Shown here one piece after another: positions 47,197-54,768 of a DNA stretch of 64,000 nt. Within the stretch, counting starts at the first letter, position 1. Each line of letters begins with the position of its first letter. The position numbers and the translations under genes were made by a program. Below the pieces are notes generated by a model. That model ran no database searches and was not told where the DNA came from. It saw only the letters and a program-made list of their open reading frames with translations. Source of the DNA: Ancylobacter amanitiformis. GTDB lineage: Bacteria; Pseudomonadota; Alphaproteobacteria; Rhizobiales; Xanthobacteraceae. The DNA is taken from NCBI RefSeq assembly GCF_030814815.1, contig NZ_JAUSVR010000009.1, positions 124,001 to 188,000 on the forward strand, in the 5' to 3' direction.

Positions 47197-47676
47197 TCAC
47201 GGGATCGGCATGTCCGAAAACGGCGCGGTCAGCAGCACGGCAAGCACCTGCTGGAGCGGATCGCCACTCTTGAGAACCGGCAGCCGCCTCAGTTCGACAC
47301 CGTCGATCCGCGCGCGGCAGGCGGCTTCTTCCGGCAGGCGGGCGGCATCGGGCGCATCGAGATCGACCACCAGATCGAGCACCGTCTCGACATCGAACGG
47401 CAGCCGGCGCAGCCCGGCGCCGCGCACTTCGATGAGGCCGGCGAGGCCATGCGGCGCCGATGCGACCAGCCTGCCGGCGCGGGTCTCAAGCCGCACCCGA
47501 TCGTCGGCTACCAGCCTCACCGGCGGCACCCGCCCCACGCCGCCCGCGAGGATGAGAGCGAAGGCAAGATGCGACTTGCCCGCGCCGGAGGCCCCGCGAA
47601 GCAACACGCCCCGCCCGCCGATGCTGACGCAGGAGGCGTGGATCGAGCCGTGCACGGTCGGCGCGTTCATGCTCAC
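47197..47676 (-). CDS. hprK: HPr kinase/phosphorylase (short alphaproteobacterial form)
   Basis: This 159-residue protein has only the C-terminal kinase domain of HprK. The P-loop GASGAGKS is at 28-35, LVADDRVRLETRAGRLVA is in the middle and GLIEVRGAGLRRLPF is the conserved catalytic block. It phosphorylates HPr on Ser. Its GTG start overlaps the chvG stop as GTGA (ATG 47670 is the alternative), so it is probably coupled to chvG translation. That supports a link between envelope stress sensing and PTS phosphorylation. Confidence 0.92.
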   Translation of the reverse strand: MSMNAPTVHGSIHASCVSIGGRGVLLRGASGAGKSHLAFALILAGGVGRVPPVRLVADDRVRLETRAGRLVASAPHGLAGLIEVRGAGLRRLPFDVETVLDLVVDLDAPDAARLPEEAACRARIDGVELRRLPVLKSGDPLQQVLAVLLTAPFSDMPIP

Positions 47677-49562
47677 ACCGCCGGCAGCCGCACGATGAAG
47701 CGGGCACCGGCGACGCGCGGTGCGGCGGGAGCCTCGCGCCGCTCCTCCCCGTCCTCCGCCTTCGGCCGGGCCTTGCGCGTGCGCGGCTTCGCCTTGGCCA
47801 GGTCCGCAAGCCGGTTTTCCGCCCAGATCCGCCCGCCATGGGCCTCGACGATCTGCCGGGAGATGGACAGCCCGAGCCCGGAATTCTGGCCGAAGCCCTG
47901 CTCTTCCGGCCGGTCGGTATAGAAGCGCTCGAAGATGCGCGAGAGCGCGTGCGGAGGGATGCCCGGCCCGTCATCATCGACGATGATCTCAACCGCGTCC
48001 TTGAGCCGGCGGCAGGTCACGCGCACCTCGCCCCCCTTCGGGGAGAAGGAGCGGGCATTGTCGATCAGGTTGTTGATGACCTGCCCGAGCCGGGAATCGT
48101 GTCCCGGCACGATGAAGGGCCCGCTCGTGCCCGGCGCGTGCTCGAAGGCGAGCGTCACGCTCACGCCGTCGCCGCGCACCACATCATTGTGCACGCTGGT
48201 GACGGTGCCGAGCAGCCGCGTCAGATCGACCGGCGCGGCCTCCTGCCGCTGCAGCTCCGCATCGAGTCGCGAAGCATCGGAAATGTCGGTGATCAGCCGG
48301 TCCAGCCGCTTCACATCGTGCTGGATGACTTCCATCAGCCGCCCGCGCGAAACGTCGTTGCGGGCCAGCGGCAGCGTTTCCACCGCCGAGCGCAGGGAGG
48401 TGAGCGGGTTCTTGAGTTCGTGCGAGACGTCCGCCGCGAAGCTCTCGATCGCCTCGATGCGCGAGTAGAGCGTGTCCGTCATGTCGCGCAGCGCGCCGGA
48501 GAGATGGCCGATCTCGTCGGAGCGACCGGTGAAATCGGGGATCTCGACGCGCGAGCGGGTTCGCCGGCGGACCCGCTCGGCGGCATCCGCCAGACGGCGC
48601 ACCGGACCGGCAATGGTGCCGGCGAGCAGCAGCGAGAGCATCACCATCACCGCCATGGCGACAAGGAAGACGCGCACGATGACGAGGCGCTCGGCCGTCA
48701 CCGCCTCCTCGATCTCCCCGCTATGGGTGGAGAGCAGCAATGCGCCGAGAATGGCGCGGAAGCGCTGGACCGGCACCGCCACCGAGACGATGACCTGCCC
48801 GCGCTCGTTCACCTGCACCGAATAGGCGTTGCGCCCCTTCAGCGCGTCCGCGACCTCGGCATAGCCCTTGCCGTTATTGGGGCCGAGATCCTTGTAGAGC
48901 GGCAGGTCGCCACGCTCGAACCAGAGCCTCAGCCGGTTCCAGGTCTTCTCGAACCAGTTCGGCCGGCGCTCGGTCGGCGGGGCCATCTCGAAGCGGAGGA
49001 TTTCGCCCTTGGAATAGAGCGAGCGGGAATCCAGCAGCAGCCCGCCGTCGCGGTCATAGATGCGGGCATTGGTGCCGGTCGGCTCGACGAGGCGCTTGAG
49101 CACCTGGGCGACGCGCTCGGGATTGATGGGAAATTCCAGCGGCGCGAAGCCCTCCTCCCCCGGCCCGTAGCTCTCGCCGGCCTGAAGCTCCAGGAGCCGC
49201 TCGGGGTCGATGGTGATGGCGTTGGTCTCGACCTGCGCCGACCCGGCAATGGCGGCGGCGATGATCTCGCCCTGCACCAGAAGGCTCTGCACGCGGGCAT
49301 CGATCAGGCCGGCGCGGAATTCGGAGAGGTAGAGAATACCGGAGACCAGCGCCACCATGCCCGCCAGATTCAGCAGCACGATGCGCCGGGTCAGGCTGGA
49401 AAAGCTCTGGAAGGCGACGAAGTTGCGCAGCCGCCGGAACGCCCCGAGAATCCCGGCAAAGCGCCCGCGCGCGCCCTTCGGCGCGGCCTCTTCCACGGAT
49501 TCGGCCTCGTCGAGAAAATCCTCGCCATCGGCCGGGGTCCGGGAGGATGGGGTATCGAGCAA
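47673..49562 (-). CDS. chvG: Sensor histidine kinase ChvG
   Basis: This 629-residue kinase has a cytoplasmic N-terminus, a first membrane helix (about 60-82) and a periplasmic domain of about 200 residues. A second helix (about 300-325), a HAMP segment and the phosphoacceptor motif FAADVSHELKNPLTSLRSAVE follow, then ATP-binding boxes NLIDNARSFSP, DDDGPGIPPHAL and GLGLSISRQIVEAHGG. ChvG/ExoS senses acid and envelope stress and signals to ChvI. The start is TTG 49562 with GGAG upstream, eight bases after chvI. Near the C-terminus (about residues 585-615) is a basic Lys/Arg-rich insertion. Confidence 0.94.
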   Translation of the reverse strand: MLDTPSSRTPADGEDFLDEAESVEEAAPKGARGRFAGILGAFRRLRNFVAFQSFSSLTRRIVLLNLAGMVALVSGILYLSEFRAGLIDARVQSLLVQGEIIAAAIAGSAQVETNAITIDPERLLELQAGESYGPGEEGFAPLEFPINPERVAQVLKRLVEPTGTNARIYDRDGGLLLDSRSLYSKGEILRFEMAPPTERRPNWFEKTWNRLRLWFERGDLPLYKDLGPNNGKGYAEVADALKGRNAYSVQVNERGQVIVSVAVPVQRFRAILGALLLSTHSGEIEEAVTAERLVIVRVFLVAMAVMVMLSLLLAGTIAGPVRRLADAAERVRRRTRSRVEIPDFTGRSDEIGHLSGALRDMTDTLYSRIEAIESFAADVSHELKNPLTSLRSAVETLPLARNDVSRGRLMEVIQHDVKRLDRLITDISDASRLDAELQRQEAAPVDLTRLLGTVTSVHNDVVRGDGVSVTLAFEHAPGTSGPFIVPGHDSRLGQVINNLIDNARSFSPKGGEVRVTCRRLKDAVEIIVDDDGPGIPPHALSRIFERFYTDRPEEQGFGQNSGLGLSISRQIVEAHGGRIWAENRLADLAKAKPRTRKARPKAEDGEERREAPAAPRVAGARFIVRLPAV

Positions 49563-49569
49563 GGAGCCG

Positions 49570-50268
49570 CTACTCCTTGAAACGATAGCCGACGCCGTAC
49601 AGCGTCTCGATCATCTCGAAATTGTCGTCCGTCACCTTGAACTTCTTGCGCAGCCGCTTGATGTGGCTGTCGATGGTGCGGTCGTCGACATAGACCTGGT
49701 CGTCATAGGCCGCGTCCATCAGCGCGTTGCGGCTCTTCACCACGCCGGGCCGGGTGGCCAGCGCCTGCAGGATGAGGAACTCGGTGACGGTCAGCGTCAC
49801 GTTCTCGCCCTTCCAGGTGCAGGTGTGGCGCTCCGGGTCCATGCGCAGCAGCCCGCGCTCCAGCACCTTGGCGCTGTCGGTCTCGCGCGGCAGCGCCCCG
49901 TCCTTGGGCGCCACGCGGCGCAGCACCGCCTTGACCCGCTCGACCAGCAGGCGCTGGGAGAACGGCTTCTTGATGAAATCGTCGGCGCCCATCTTGAGGC
50001 CGAACAATTCGTCGATCTCGTCATCCTTCGACGTGAGGAAGATGACCGGCATGTCGCTCTTCTGGCGCAGCCGGCGCAGCAGTTCCATCCCGTCCATGCG
50101 CGGCATCTTGATATCGAAGATGGCGAGGTCGGGCGGGTTCGTCTTGAAACCGTCCAGCGCCGTCGCGCCATCCGTGTAGGTCTGGATCCGGTAGCCCTCG
50201 GATTCCAGTGCTATCGACACGGACGTCAGGATGTTGCGGTCGTCGTCGACGAGGGCGATGGTCGGCAT
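49570..50268 (-). CDS. chvI: Response regulator ChvI
   Basis: This 232-residue OmpR-type regulator starts [22 protein letters not shown], has the phosphoacceptor Asp in [20 protein letters not shown] and the Lys in [15 protein letters not shown] winged helix domain ends [18 protein letters not shown] and GVGYRFKE. It works with ChvG to control envelope, exopolysaccharide and metabolic genes. The frame runs to 50346 but ATG 50268 is the family start. In many rhizobia pckA lies divergent from chvI; here a HugZ-like gene and then a PckA homologue follow. Confidence 0.95.
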
Positions 50269-50475
50269 CTGCACTCTTTCCTGTTCGGCAGCTTCTTGCG
50301 CAGTATGCGGTGAACCGTGCGGGCGTGGCCATAATGTGACACGCAAATCGATTCAACAGAAATTAGCGCGTTTCGAGAGACATAGCCAATACCGCCTGCG
50401 CGCCTTGACGCCAGGGGCCTTGCGGAGTCACCTCAGCCAAGGTTTGACGGCCAGATCTTGGCGAGGGCAGAAAGC

Positions 50476-51237
50476 ATGAACACGCCCCCTTCCGCAACCG
50501 AAGCATTCGACCCCGCCGGGGCCACGCGGCGGCTGATCCGCGAGGCGCGCGTCGCCGCGCTGGCCACGCTCGACGCGGACGGCACGCCCTATGTGTCGCT
50601 GGTCCAGCTCTCCACCCGGCCCGATGGCGCGCCGCTGCTGCTGCTCTCCAGCCTCGCGCGCCACACGCACAATCTCACCCGCGACGCGCGGGCCTGCCTG
50701 CTGGTGGACGAGCGCCGGCTGGGTGACGAATTGCAGGGGGCACGGGCGAGCCTGAAGGGCGCCATCGCCCGCCTCGACGATGAGACGGCGATCGCCACGG
50801 CGCGCCGCCGCTTCCTCGCCCGCCACGCGGAGGCCGCCGGTTTCGCGGGCTTCGCCGATTTCGCCTTCTACCGCATGGAACCCGAGAGCGCGCATCTGGT
50901 GGCCGGCTTCGGGCGCATTGCCGATGTGGAGCGCGAGGGGCTCATGACCGATGTGTCGGATGCCGGCGAACTCCTCGCCGCGGAAGAGGGCGCCATCGCC
51001 CACATGAACGCCGACCACCGGGATGCGATCGGCCTCTATGCGCTGCACCTCGCGGGAGCCGGGCCGGGCGACTGGCGGATCGTCGGCATCGACCCGGAAG
51101 GCTGCGATCTGATGGCGGGAACCGAACTCAGGCGCCTCACCTTCCCTCGCCGCGTCACCACGGCGCGGGGCATGAGAGAAATTTTGGTGGAACTGGCCGG
51201 TGCGGCGCGCGGCGTAACGATTGATTCGGCTCAATAG
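50476..51237 (+). CDS. HugZ-like FMN-binding split-barrel protein
   Basis: This 253-residue protein has an N-terminal pyridoxamine-phosphate-oxidase-like split barrel (about 20-150, RVAALATLDADGTPYVSLVQL). A C-terminal DUF2470-type domain follows (about 165-245, EEGAIAHMNADHRDAIGLYA). This plan is shared with HugZ heme oxygenases and related FMN proteins. Heme use is not proved. It is divergent from chvI and 144 bp ahead of the PckA-like gene on the same strand. Confidence 0.85.
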   Translation: MNTPPSATEAFDPAGATRRLIREARVAALATLDADGTPYVSLVQLSTRPDGAPLLLLSSLARHTHNLTRDARACLLVDERRLGDELQGARASLKGAIARLDDETAIATARRRFLARHAEAAGFAGFADFAFYRMEPESAHLVAGFGRIADVEREGLMTDVSDAGELLAAEEGAIAHMNADHRDAIGLYALHLAGAGPGDWRIVGIDPEGCDLMAGTELRRLTFPRRVTTARGMREILVELAGAARGVTIDSAQ

Positions 51238-51381
51238 TTTATCACGGGACGCCGTCCACTGGAATCCGCCGTCATGGGTTCGGCCCGGTTTTGTCACAGA
51301 TTTGACCGGGATGGGCGGGCACAACGTCGGCATGGGCACCGATCCTGCCCCCCGTTTGTCACGCGTCAGGAGGAGCCGACC

Positions 51382-52980
51382 TTGCACCAGACCGGCACAC
51401 GCAACGAGCAGCACGGCATTGAGGCCATCGGCCTCGCCGGCACCGGCAAAGTCTTCTGGAATCTGGCGGAGGCCGCGCTGTGCGAACGCTCCATCGCCCG
51501 TGGCGAAAGCCACATGTCCGCCTTCGGCGCGCTGGTCGCCGATAGCGGCGCGCCGGCCGGGCGAAGCCCGGAGGATCGCTTCATCGTGCGCGACGAGGCC
51601 AGCGAAGCCGATGTGTGGTGGGACAATGTCAACGCTCTCTCACGCGAGACCTTCGAGCAGCTGAAGGCGGATGCCCTCGCCCATGCCGGCGGGCGCACCC
51701 TTTTCGCGCAGGACCTCGAAGCCGGCGCCGATCCCGCCTTCCGCACCCCCGTGCGCGTCTTCACCGAGCACGCCTGGCAGGCGCTGTTCATCCGCGACCT
51801 GCTGCATCGGCCCGACAGCGCCGAACTCGCCACATTCGTGCCCGAACTCACCGTGCTGTGCCTGCCGAGCTTCAGGGCCGAGCCGGATCGCCACGGTGTG
51901 CGCTCGCGCACGGTGATCGCCTGCGACCTCACAGGCGGCCTTGTGCTGATCGGGGGAACGCAGCACGCCGGCGAGATGGCCAAGGCAATCTTCAGCGTGC
52001 TGACCTACACCCTGCCCGCGCGCGGCGTGCTGCCGCTGCATGCCGCCGCCAACATGGGCGAGGCGGGCGACGTCGCCTTGTTCATCGGCGAGAGCGGCGC
52101 GGGCAAGACCGCCCTCGCCGCCGACGCCACGCGCCTGCTGATCGGCGATGACGAAACCGGCTGGAGCCGCACCGGCGTCTTCAACGTGGAAAACGGCTGT
52201 TGCGTCCGCACCCAGGGCCTCGCCGCGGCGGAGCCCGCGCTTGCCGCCGCCGCCCAGCAGTTCGGCGCGGTGCTGGAGAATGTGGCGCTGGATGGCGACA
52301 CCCGGCTGCCCATGTTCGATGCCCCCGCGCGGGCGGAAGGCGCGCGGGCGGTGTTCCCCCTCGCCGCCCTCGCCCATGCCGCGCCCGAGGCGCGCGGCGC
52401 CGCGCCGCGTCATCTCTTCCTGCTGGTGCAGGATCCCCATGGCGTGCTGCCCCCGCTCGCCCGGCTGACCCCGGCGCAGGCGCTCTATCATTTCCTCTCC
52501 GGCTATACCGCCGGGCCGACCGATGCCGCCGAGCCCGAGGTGCGGTTCTCCGCCGGCTTCTCCGGCTCCCTGCTGCTGCGCCATCCCTCCACCTATGGTC
52601 GGCAGCTGCGCGAACTGATCGGCGCGCGGGATGTGGAGTGCTGGATCGTCAATACCGGTTGGACCGGCGGCAAGGCCGGCACCGGCCGGCGCATGCCCAT
52701 CGAGGTGACGCGCCACCTCGTCGCCGCCGTGCTGGAAGATCGCCTGATGGAAGCTGAATGGCGCACCGACCCGCATTTCGGCTTCGCCGTGCCGATGGCG
52801 GTCGAAGGCGTCGACAGCCGTCTGCTCGATCCGGCGCGCGGCTGGGCCAGTCGCATGGACTACGCCATGACCGCTCGCCGGCTGGTCAGCCTGTTCAGCG
52901 ACAATTTCGCCCGCTTCGAGAACGCGGTCGACGATGAGATCCGCCACGCCCAGCCCGGCATGGCGATCGCCGCCGAGTAG
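51382..52980 (+). CDS. PEP carboxykinase (ATP) homologue with altered active site
   Basis: This 532-residue protein is homologous over its full length to ATP-type PckA, which turns oxaloacetate into PEP in gluconeogenesis. GRSPEDRFIVRD, FAQDLEAGADP, RFRVFTEHAW-like and NTGWTGGKAGTGRRMPI are recognisable. However, several catalytic motifs are changed: GGTQHAGEMAKAIF where YAGEMKK is usual, LHAAAN for MHCSAN, GESGAGKTALA for GLSGTGKTTLS, DDETGW for DDEHGW, VENGCCVR for FEGGCYAK, and YTAGPTD where YTAKVAGTE is expected. The P-loop Lys and the Lys/His/Asp metal ligands remain. TTG 51382 with AGGAGG upstream is the start. It sits where pckA lies in related genomes. Confidence 0.8.
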   Translation: MHQTGTRNEQHGIEAIGLAGTGKVFWNLAEAALCERSIARGESHMSAFGALVADSGAPAGRSPEDRFIVRDEASEADVWWDNVNALSRETFEQLKADALAHAGGRTLFAQDLEAGADPAFRTPVRVFTEHAWQALFIRDLLHRPDSAELATFVPELTVLCLPSFRAEPDRHGVRSRTVIACDLTGGLVLIGGTQHAGEMAKAIFSVLTYTLPARGVLPLHAAANMGEAGDVALFIGESGAGKTALAADATRLLIGDDETGWSRTGVFNVENGCCVRTQGLAAAEPALAAAAQQFGAVLENVALDGDTRLPMFDAPARAEGARAVFPLAALAHAAPEARGAAPRHLFLLVQDPHGVLPPLARLTPAQALYHFLSGYTAGPTDAAEPEVRFSAGFSGSLLLRHPSTYGRQLRELIGARDVECWIVNTGWTGGKAGTGRRMPIEVTRHLVAAVLEDRLMEAEWRTDPHFGFAVPMAVEGVDSRLLDPARGWASRMDYAMTARRLVSLFSDNFARFENAVDDEIRHAQPGMAIAAE

Positions 52981-53100: not shown

Positions 53101-54543
53101 TCAGAGGAAATAGAGCCAGGTCAGCAGCGCGAAACACGGCAGCAGGAAGATGCCCGACCACGCCATGTAGCCGAAGAAGCTCGGCATCGCGACGCCGCGG
53201 CTCTTGGCGATGGCCAGCACCATGAAGTTCGGCGCGTTGCCGATATAGGTGAGCGCGCCCATGAACACCGCGCCGGCCGAAATCGCTTCCAGCGTCACCG
53301 CATGGGTGGTCATCAGCGCGGCCGGATCGCCTCCCGCCAGATTGAAGAACACCAGATAGGTCGGCGCATTGTCGAGGAAGCCGGAGAGCAGGCCGGTCAT
53401 CCAGAAATAGCCGGCATTGAACGGCTCGCCTCCCTCCTGGGTGACGAGGGCGACCAGCGGCGACAGCGCCCCGTCCGCCCCCGCCTTCAGGATGGCGATG
53501 ACCGGGATGATGGTGAGGAAGATCGCCGCGAACAGCTTGGCCACCTCGCGGATCGGCTCCCAGTCGAAGCCGTTGCGCTCGCGGATGAAGGCCGGCGTGA
53601 TCTTGAGCGAGACCAGGGCGAGCAGCACGAGCGCGACATCGCGCGCCACCGAGGGCAACGGCACATGGGTGCCGAGCACGTTGAACTCGATGCCCGGCTT
53701 CCACAGCGCGCTCATCAGGATGGCGGCGATCACGCCGCCCAGCAGCGGCAGGTTGCGCAAGCCCCGCAGCCCCAGCCGCTCGTCGCCCGGCGTCGGGTCG
53801 CGCTTGGCCGGCAGGTTGTCCTCCCGCCCGTAGAAATGCCGATCCAGCAGGTAGAAGGCCACGAGCAGGATCACCGCCACCACCGCCGTGTCGTGGAACA
53901 GGTGCTGCGTGGTCCAGAAGAAATCGACGCCCTTCAGGAAGCCGAGGAATAGCGGCGGATCGCCGAGCGGGGTGAGCGAGCCCCCGATATTCGACACCAG
54001 GAAGATGAAGAACACCACCGTATGCACATTGTGGCGCCGCTCGTCATTGGCGCGCAGCAGCGGGCGGATCAGCACCATCGAGGCCCCGGTGGTGCCGATG
54101 ACGCTCGCCAATACCGTGCCGATGGCGAGCAGGCCGGTATTCACCGCCGGGCTGCCCTTCAGATTGCCGGTCAGCAGGATGCCGCCGGAAATGGTGAACA
54201 GCGAGAATAGCAGGATGATGAAGGGGATGTATTCCAGCAGCCCCGCATGCGCGACCTCATAGACCGCGAGCCCCGCGCCCTGGACGGCGATGAACGGCGC
54301 GAGGAGGGTGAGCGCCCAGAACAGCGCGACCTTGCCATAATGGTGGTGCCAGAAATGCCCGGCCACCAGCGGAATCACCGCGATCGACAGCAGCATGCCG
54401 ACGAAGGGAATAGCCCACAGCAGCGACAGGCTGGCCCCGTCCAGCCCCATGCCGTCGGCGGCAGCGGCGGGCGTTGCCGCCAGCGCCAGGCCGAGCGCGG
54501 CGATCGGGAGAGAGGAAAGGGCGGCGGCTTTCGTCGTCGGCAT
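53101..54543 (-). CDS. nhaD: NhaD-type Na+/H+ antiporter
   Basis: This 480-residue ion-transporter-superfamily protein has a cleavable-looking N-terminus (MPTTKAAALSSLPIAALGLALA, ending AAAA) and about 12 hydrophobic helices. FLVSNIGGSLTPLGDPPLFLGFLKGVDFFW and the C-terminal LDNAPTYLVFFN and YIGNAPNFMVLAIAKSRGVAMPSFFGYM are typical of NhaD/arsenite-permease-like antiporters. It would export sodium in exchange for protons. The frame is open to 55293 across recR's antisense strand; ATG 54543 is the family start. Confidence 0.87.
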   Translation of the reverse strand: MPTTKAAALSSLPIAALGLALAATPAAAADGMGLDGASLSLLWAIPFVGMLLSIAVIPLVAGHFWHHHYGKVALFWALTLLAPFIAVQGAGLAVYEVAHAGLLEYIPFIILLFSLFTISGGILLTGNLKGSPAVNTGLLAIGTVLASVIGTTGASMVLIRPLLRANDERRHNVHTVVFFIFLVSNIGGSLTPLGDPPLFLGFLKGVDFFWTTQHLFHDTAVVAVILLVAFYLLDRHFYGREDNLPAKRDPTPGDERLGLRGLRNLPLLGGVIAAILMSALWKPGIEFNVLGTHVPLPSVARDVALVLLALVSLKITPAFIRERNGFDWEPIREVAKLFAAIFLTIIPVIAILKAGADGALSPLVALVTQEGGEPFNAGYFWMTGLLSGFLDNAPTYLVFFNLAGGDPAALMTTHAVTLEAISAGAVFMGALTYIGNAPNFMVLAIAKSRGVAMPSFFGYMAWSGIFLLPCFALLTWLYFL

Positions 54544-54768
54544 GACATCTCCCGTGGCGGCATCAAGTGGCCCTCCCCCGGTTAGCAACCCCCCTCCCGG
54601 GTGTCGAGAAAAACCGGGCGGCCCCGACCCGAAGGGGCCCTGCCGGGATCGCCATCGGCCCGACAAGCGCTGATGTGATGGAGCGCACGGGCCCGCCCGT
54701 GGCGCGGCGCCGCAGGCTGCGCTAGACCGGCATATTCCGCCGGCGCGCCTGCCGGCCGTGAGGACGCC

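Follow-up and report, generated by a model that had tools for sequence, protein, structure and literature searches.

We analyzed a 64,000-nucleotide stretch of the Ancylobacter amanitiformis genome (contig NZ_JAUSVR010000009.1, positions 124,001 to 188,000), referred to here as the window. On its forward strand, at 51382..52980, lies a pckA gene for PEP carboxykinase (PEPCK), the textbook gluconeogenic enzyme. The reading frame begins at a TTG codon, is open throughout and encodes 532 residues that diverge from canonical PckA. A strong Shine-Dalgarno sequence precedes it (AGGAGGAG, 51368..51375, forward strand), and similar purine-rich sites lie 5' of the start in congeners with canonical and with divergent pckA. 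Further upstream, sequence comparison identified a candidate element, TTTTGTCACAGATTTGACCGGGA (51289..51311, forward strand). Elements of this type, TTT-GYCACA-N-AATCGACCCGGAA, are found 5' of pckA in congeners, and the GYCACA core was counted by eye in 24 of 30 genomes, both canonical and divergent. A search of the PMC literature, as far as its text was accessible, returned no published ChvI or BvrR motif matching the element.

The gene between chvI and pckA encodes a HugZ-like PNPOx/DUF2470 protein (50458..51237, forward strand, domain matches), which is fast evolving, with a dN/dS of 0.50 between the window and A. tetraedralis. On the reverse strand are a response regulator (49570..50346, Pfam response regulator match), a sensor kinase (47673..49562, Pfam Stimulus_sens_1, Sensor_TM1 and HisKA) and a short HPr kinase C-terminal domain protein (47197..47676, domain matches). 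We take the regulator and the sensor kinase to be ChvI and ChvG, and the neighboring permease (53101–54600) is presumably NhaD.

The order NPr-EIIA-HprK-ChvG-ChvI-HugZ-PckA was present in 29/29 congeners, canonical and divergent, and PckA lies beside HprK, ChvG, ChvI and HugZ in 7/7 relatives from the family. Since the chvI-chvG-hprK neighborhood is common to canonical and divergent pckA, it is ancestral. PEPCK and HPr kinase share a P-loop fold, and the constant adjacency raises the possibility that PckA has come to work with, or to phosphorylate, components of the neighboring PTS-Ntr/HprK/ChvGI circuit; this would be one particular form of the explanation that we favor below. Protein phosphorylation has been reported for mammalian PCK1 (PMC9138534), pckA of Agrobacterium is reportedly regulated by ChvG-ChvI (cited in PMC3687685) and BvrR is reported to bind upstream of pckA in Brucella (PMC9491525). 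However, the same neighborhood accompanies canonical pckA, and a dN/dS comparison revealed no acceleration of HprK in the divergent pairs, so that no rate correlation with HprK is visible. We consider membership of this circuit improbable, and the signalling role tied to the nearby hprK, which the sequence-only reading had put forward, is not supported so far.

In a profile search of the window genome this gene was the sole match to PEPCK_ATP, and nothing matched PEPCK_GTP. A second pckA or a GTP-PEPCK in the genome was rejected on this result. Sequencing or assembly error is unlikely because PckA of A. tetraedralis DSM 5895 (G005), 98% identical to the window protein, agrees with it at each of the 19 key residues compared. 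The best-scoring rows after A. tetraedralis were canonical congeners, at 63–66% identity among the rows compared. That a distinct divergent family was acquired horizontally is not favored, since the position of the locus is identical in 29/29 congeners. We read the window gene as an ortholog of pckA, the only copy in an Ancylobacter genome that carries autotrophy genes.

The window protein scored 516 bits against PF01293 (ATP-dependent PEPCK, gathering score 26.5) and fell below the cut-offs of both NCBIfam pckA equivalogs, TIGR00224 (456.5 bits, cut-off 590.05) and NF006822 (692 bits, cut-off 806), which 5/5 canonical congeners tested, of seven, exceeded. Only PEPCK families matched it, with no match to Hpr_kinase_C or TIGR00679. 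AlphaFold models were built from 6-row alignments, and the window model, which is not independent of the sequence, has a predicted PEPCK fold (pLDDT 78.1, TM 0.89 to T. thermophilus PEPCK 1j3b). The model of A. defluvii PckA is of low confidence (pLDDT 63.3), and its ATP-PEPCK hits, at TM 0.62–0.69, are weak evidence. One Foldseek hit, 9a4u, is by its PDB title an integrative crosslinking model of PCKA with QOX2 and may hint that a bacterial PckA has a partner outside metabolism.

Active-site residues of the window protein

We aligned the window protein to E. coli K-12 Pck and use the E. coli numbering, with window residue numbers given separately. All coordinates refer to the forward strand, and the Mn2+, substrate and nucleotide roles of the residues are those we assume from E. 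coli Pck structures. HAGEMAK (51964..51984, residues 195–201, E. coli 207–213) carries Tyr207His and Lys212Ala but keeps Lys213. LHAAAN (52036..52053, residues 219–224, E. coli 231–236) carries Met231Leu and Cys233Ala and keeps His232. In the P-loop GESGAGKTALA (52087..52119, residues 236–246, E. coli 248–258), Leu249Glu, Thr252Ala, Thr256Ala and Ser258Ala surround the retained Lys254 and Thr255. His271Thr is found in DDETGW (52147..52164, residues 256–261), where Asp268 and Asp269 are kept, and Tyr286Cys, Ala287Val and Lys288Arg in VENGCCVR (52186..52209, residues 269–276). Arg322 (52345..52347), equivalent to E. coli Arg333, is kept here and in 23/23 divergent congeners. The shortened segment YTAGPTD (52504..52524) carries Lys390Gly and has no residues aligned to E. 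coli 392–394 (A392-T394). Every motif change listed in the sequence-only reading was found in the translation and borne out by this alignment, as was the retention of the P-loop lysine and the metal-binding Lys, His and Asp.

To place these changes, we compared 37 canonical rows plus E. coli, which gave 111 invariant positions; the rows were picked by sequence and not by assay, and the invariance is thus partly by construction. They comprise 7 Ancylobacter sequences, 5 from other family members, 3 named hits (Aurantimonas, Mesorhizobium alhagi and Rhodobacterales, canonical by their residues), 18 from other members of the order and 4 from family f35. The window protein is changed at 27 of the 111 positions, including Y207, K212, Y286, K288 and K390, and the substitutions are not common in canonical enzymes.

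The Mn2+ ligands Lys213, His232 and Asp269 are all present, as are R65, R333, K254, T255, D268, E297, R449 and T455, whereas the substrate set of Arg65, Tyr207, Lys212 and Arg333 is incomplete through Tyr207His and Lys212Ala. Given the retained Mn2+ ligands, Arg65, Arg333 and P-loop Lys and Thr, the window protein may still be a PEPCK, of altered specificity or weak activity. One reading extends this: the protein would still be a PEPCK, or a closely related enzyme acting on an acyl substrate, whose kinetics or specificity have shifted, and PEPCK function would be missing from the most divergent congeners alone. The retained residues and the predicted fold would agree with it. By their titles, PDB entries also exist for E. 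coli Pck altered at Y207 or K212, with thiosulfate, methanesulfonate or oxaloacetate as the bound ligand, which suggests that the Y207/K212 face tunes ligands. Against it stand the 27 altered invariants and the scores below both NCBIfam cut-offs that the canonical congeners tested exceed. We regard this reading as less probable than the explanation favored below.

A graded series of pckA genes in Ancylobacter

A PEPCK_ATP match was found in 30/30 Ancylobacter genomes. The gene is canonical in 7 and divergent in 23, and the divergent genes form a graded series. Canonical proteins score 689–713 bits; divergent ones run from 552 bits downward, the lowest matching only in two pieces (G016, 134 + 46 bits), and their genes shorten to as few as 494 codons. 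Residue tables and the PckA tree omit two draft genomes of the family, G030 (locus L066) and G031 (L067), whose assemblies show pckA divided between two frames, through a real break or an assembly error, and duplicate loci were merged.

Comparison of the 23 divergent proteins indicates which parts of the active site have changed. On the substrate side, Tyr207 is kept in none, Lys212 in 1 and Arg65 in 3, and of the Mn2+ ligands Lys213 is kept in 3, His232 in 5 and Asp269 in 5. All three ligands together with Tyr207 are gone from 18 proteins, where position 269 is Gly in 17 and Ser in 1. On the nucleotide side, Asp268, Arg449, Thr/Ser255 and Thr/Ser455 are each kept in 23/23 and Lys254 of the P-loop in 21/23, while Ser250 remains in only 7/23 and Glu297 in 9/23. 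New states are also shared, with M231L in 23/23, S258A in 22/23 and K288R in 20/23. The P-loop lysine is lost in two divergent genomes, G001 (L037) and G011 (L047), a lineage that may have abandoned ATP binding.

In the 18 most changed proteins, six oxaloacetate/Mn residues were kept at a frequency of 0.009, against 0.545 for 93 other invariants, and 0 of 20,000 random draws were as low. Twelve ATP/Mg residues were kept at 0.856 against 0.597 when similar residues were counted (P 0.002), and at 0.657 by identity alone, which was not significant (P 0.14; 0.12 in another run). Thirteen representatives gave the same picture. At the level of sequence, loss on the substrate side is clear, and the apparent preferential keeping of the nucleotide side depends on counting conservative replacements, for example of Thr by Ser or of Lys by Arg. 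The window protein, with its metal ligands, Arg65, Arg333 and P-loop Lys and Thr, reads as an early member of the series. The claim that normal catalysis has been lost is partly supported: the 18 congeners without Mn2+ ligands make it the likely direction of change, and the window protein itself, given its retained residues, may still have PEPCK activity.

All 23 divergent frames are open with no internal stop. In a neutral simulation of 10 pairs, some of which share a genome, the mean was 2.0–8.7 stops per pair and 0–14% of 200 runs were stop-free. By the NG86 method, dN/dS between the window and A. tetraedralis pckA is 0.082, consistent with the purifying selection looked for, and the window gene has neither a broken frame nor a dN/dS near 1. 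Nine other divergent pairs gave 0.21–0.48 and three canonical pairs 0.07–0.20. Codon models of the 7 canonical and 17 of the 23 divergent genes, in which the window and A. tetraedralis pair lies outside the modelled clades, gave omega values of 0.211, 0.136 and 0.132 for three divergent clades, compared with 0.089 for canonical pckA and 0.05–0.08 for ChvG and the neighboring permease. Divergent genes also retain their ribosome binding site, start and GC3. Because the frames are intact and omega is 0.13–0.21 in three clades, the divergent genes are not pseudogenes; because omega exceeds the canonical value, constraint is also partly relaxed.

PPDK, RuBisCO and PEP carboxylase were found in 30/30 Ancylobacter genomes. 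Eleven relatives, among them three divergent species of a second genus, g46, were also tested for PPDK, and 10 scored above the cut-off. RuBisCO and PEP carboxylase proteins have been reported in S. novella cells (PMC3797975). Autotrophy or PPDK was considered as the switch between canonical and divergent pckA, and does not discriminate between them. Since PPDK is present equally in canonical species and relatives, it permits the change and does not determine which lineages changed. PPDK, PEP carboxylase and RuBisCO make PEPCK dispensable and do not explain why the protein is retained. It could be argued that an unneeded pckA is drifting towards a pseudogene and was caught before the frames broke. 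The universal PPDK, the higher omega and the length variation in the divergent clades fit such decay, as do the 91 of 397 genomes sampled across the order that gave no PEPCK_ATP match and the report that pckA of Brucella abortus has a premature stop and PEP is made by PpdK (PMC5896264, PMC9491525). Nevertheless, 23/23 open frames are far from the simulated neutral outcome, omega in three clades is far below 1, the start signal and GC3 are kept, and no genome of the 30 has dropped the gene. We judge simple decay quite improbable.

Probable repeated origin and a second genus

We built a marker tree from five neighboring markers, all from the pckA locus. The window and A. tetraedralis are sister to canonical G025 (95/98), and canonical G007, G010 and G021 fall in one clade with ten divergent species (99/99). 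A single origin was found in 0/200 bootstrap trees; the best tree has 5 changes and its well-supported branches force at least 3. Assuming irreversible loss, the marker tree has 6 departures (4–7 in 1000 bootstraps), with Asp269 lost 5 times (3–5 in bootstraps). The first marker tree was rooted with G030 and G032–G035 as outgroups (without G031 and G036), and a later one with only G030 and G035. The tree of PckA itself, from which G036 was omitted, needs only 2 changes. Long divergent branches may attract each other in that tree. All the markers, for their part, come from the same locus, and if it had recombined, the marker tree could show repeated loss that did not take place.

We looked for comparable proteins elsewhere. 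PEPCK_ATP matches were found in 306/397 genomes of the order sample and in 162/385 of the class sample. Six low scorers of the order sample were followed: three (G176, G314 and G093) are pieces at contig ends, and the other three are full-length divergent proteins of one Rhizobiales genus, g46 (family f35), whose pckA genes occupy the same place and are again graded. G228 (L089) is mildly changed, with His in place of Lys213. G304 (L088) has lost all three metal ligands, including Asp269Gly, and G146 (L087) keeps only the Lys213 equivalent, with Asp269Gly and His232 lost; both frames are open. In G146, Arg333 is Thr and Asp268 is Glu, so that in this genome the ATP side is going too. The three form one clade on the marker tree (96/97), from which G205 was omitted because markers beside its pckA were not found. 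Among the low and mid scorers, the residue-level reading covered these six, and the number of divergent forms elsewhere is thus a lower bound; the remaining low and mid scorers include G038, G207, G280, G317, G345 and G425 in the order sample and G451, G457, G495, G602 and G621 in the class sample. Judged from the low scorers followed, divergent forms look rare outside Ancylobacter. Together, the linked-marker tree and the second genus support repeated loss of the oxaloacetate side of the active site.

Possible function of the retained protein and comparison with known systems

The evolutionary pattern is real and unusual, and from it we infer a protein with reduced PEPCK activity, retained ATP binding and a new or pre-existing second role. 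We favor, with moderate confidence, the explanation that PckA no longer serves oxaloacetate chemistry and persists as a protein that binds ATP, or as a kinase. PEPCK catalysis would have become dispensable in Ancylobacter, after which pckA would repeatedly have lost the oxaloacetate/Mn2+/CO2 half of the active site. The ATP/Mg2+ half would have been largely kept, along with the reading frame, translation start and place, and the product would be retained for a function that does without oxaloacetate. The residues retained suggest ATP binding, perhaps with phosphate transfer to another acceptor, and the protein would most likely be an ATP-binding regulatory pseudoenzyme or a kinase with another phosphate acceptor. 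The window protein would represent an early stage, at which Tyr207His, Lys212Ala, Tyr286Cys and the shortened 390–394 segment should impair or redirect catalysis.

A broader and more doubtful proposal is that rhizobial PckA has an ancestral second role without oxaloacetate chemistry, as an ATP-binding signalling or scaffold protein possibly tied to ChvGI and PTS-Ntr. This role alone would have been kept by selection where PPDK and carbon fixation made PEPCK dispensable. An ATP-binding pseudoenzyme or a new kinase would then have arisen some six times within Ancylobacter, and independently in the second genus.

Automatic pckA annotation in these species may mislead metabolic models. Close relatives that have repeatedly lost half of one active site while keeping the frame amount to a natural experiment, from which a so far hidden role of PckA in bacteria could emerge. 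Cultured species should suit such tests: A. tetraedralis DSM 5895 has a divergent gene, and Starkeya novella (G010) has a canonical one and could serve as the control. Among the matches listed in PMC, where subscription papers are mostly outside scope, no title or abstract opening described a PckA that is retained with altered catalysis, be it in Ancylobacter or in any other organism.

We compared the Ancylobacter proteins to known systems. Relative to PckA as defined by PF01293 and TIGR00224/NF006822, the window gene is orthologous, in the same place and full length, its product has the same predicted fold, and both the P-loop and the metal ligands are present. It differs in the 27/111 changed invariants and in scoring below the curated equivalog cut-offs, and 18 congeners differ further in lacking all three Mn2+ ligands. 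The E. coli Pck variants 6at3 (Y207F), 6asn (K212I F216V) and 6asm (G209S K212C), known here by their PDB titles, share changes at Tyr207 and Lys212. These are laboratory variants of one or two residues, whereas the Ancylobacter series is a natural, many-residue remodelling. Mammalian PCK1 is likewise a PEPCK for which phosphotransfer outside gluconeogenesis has been reported (PMC9138534), but it is a GTP enzyme, and a protein substrate of Ancylobacter PckA is hypothetical. The inactivated pckA of Brucella abortus, B. melitensis and B. ovis is a likeness in dispensability where PPDK makes PEP (PMC5896264, with PpdK dependence reported for B. abortus), and in B. abortus pckA is also described as lying upstream of and opposite to bvrR (PMC9491525). 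There, however, a frameshift and premature stop break pckA, whereas in Ancylobacter the frame is kept and the changes are under purifying selection.
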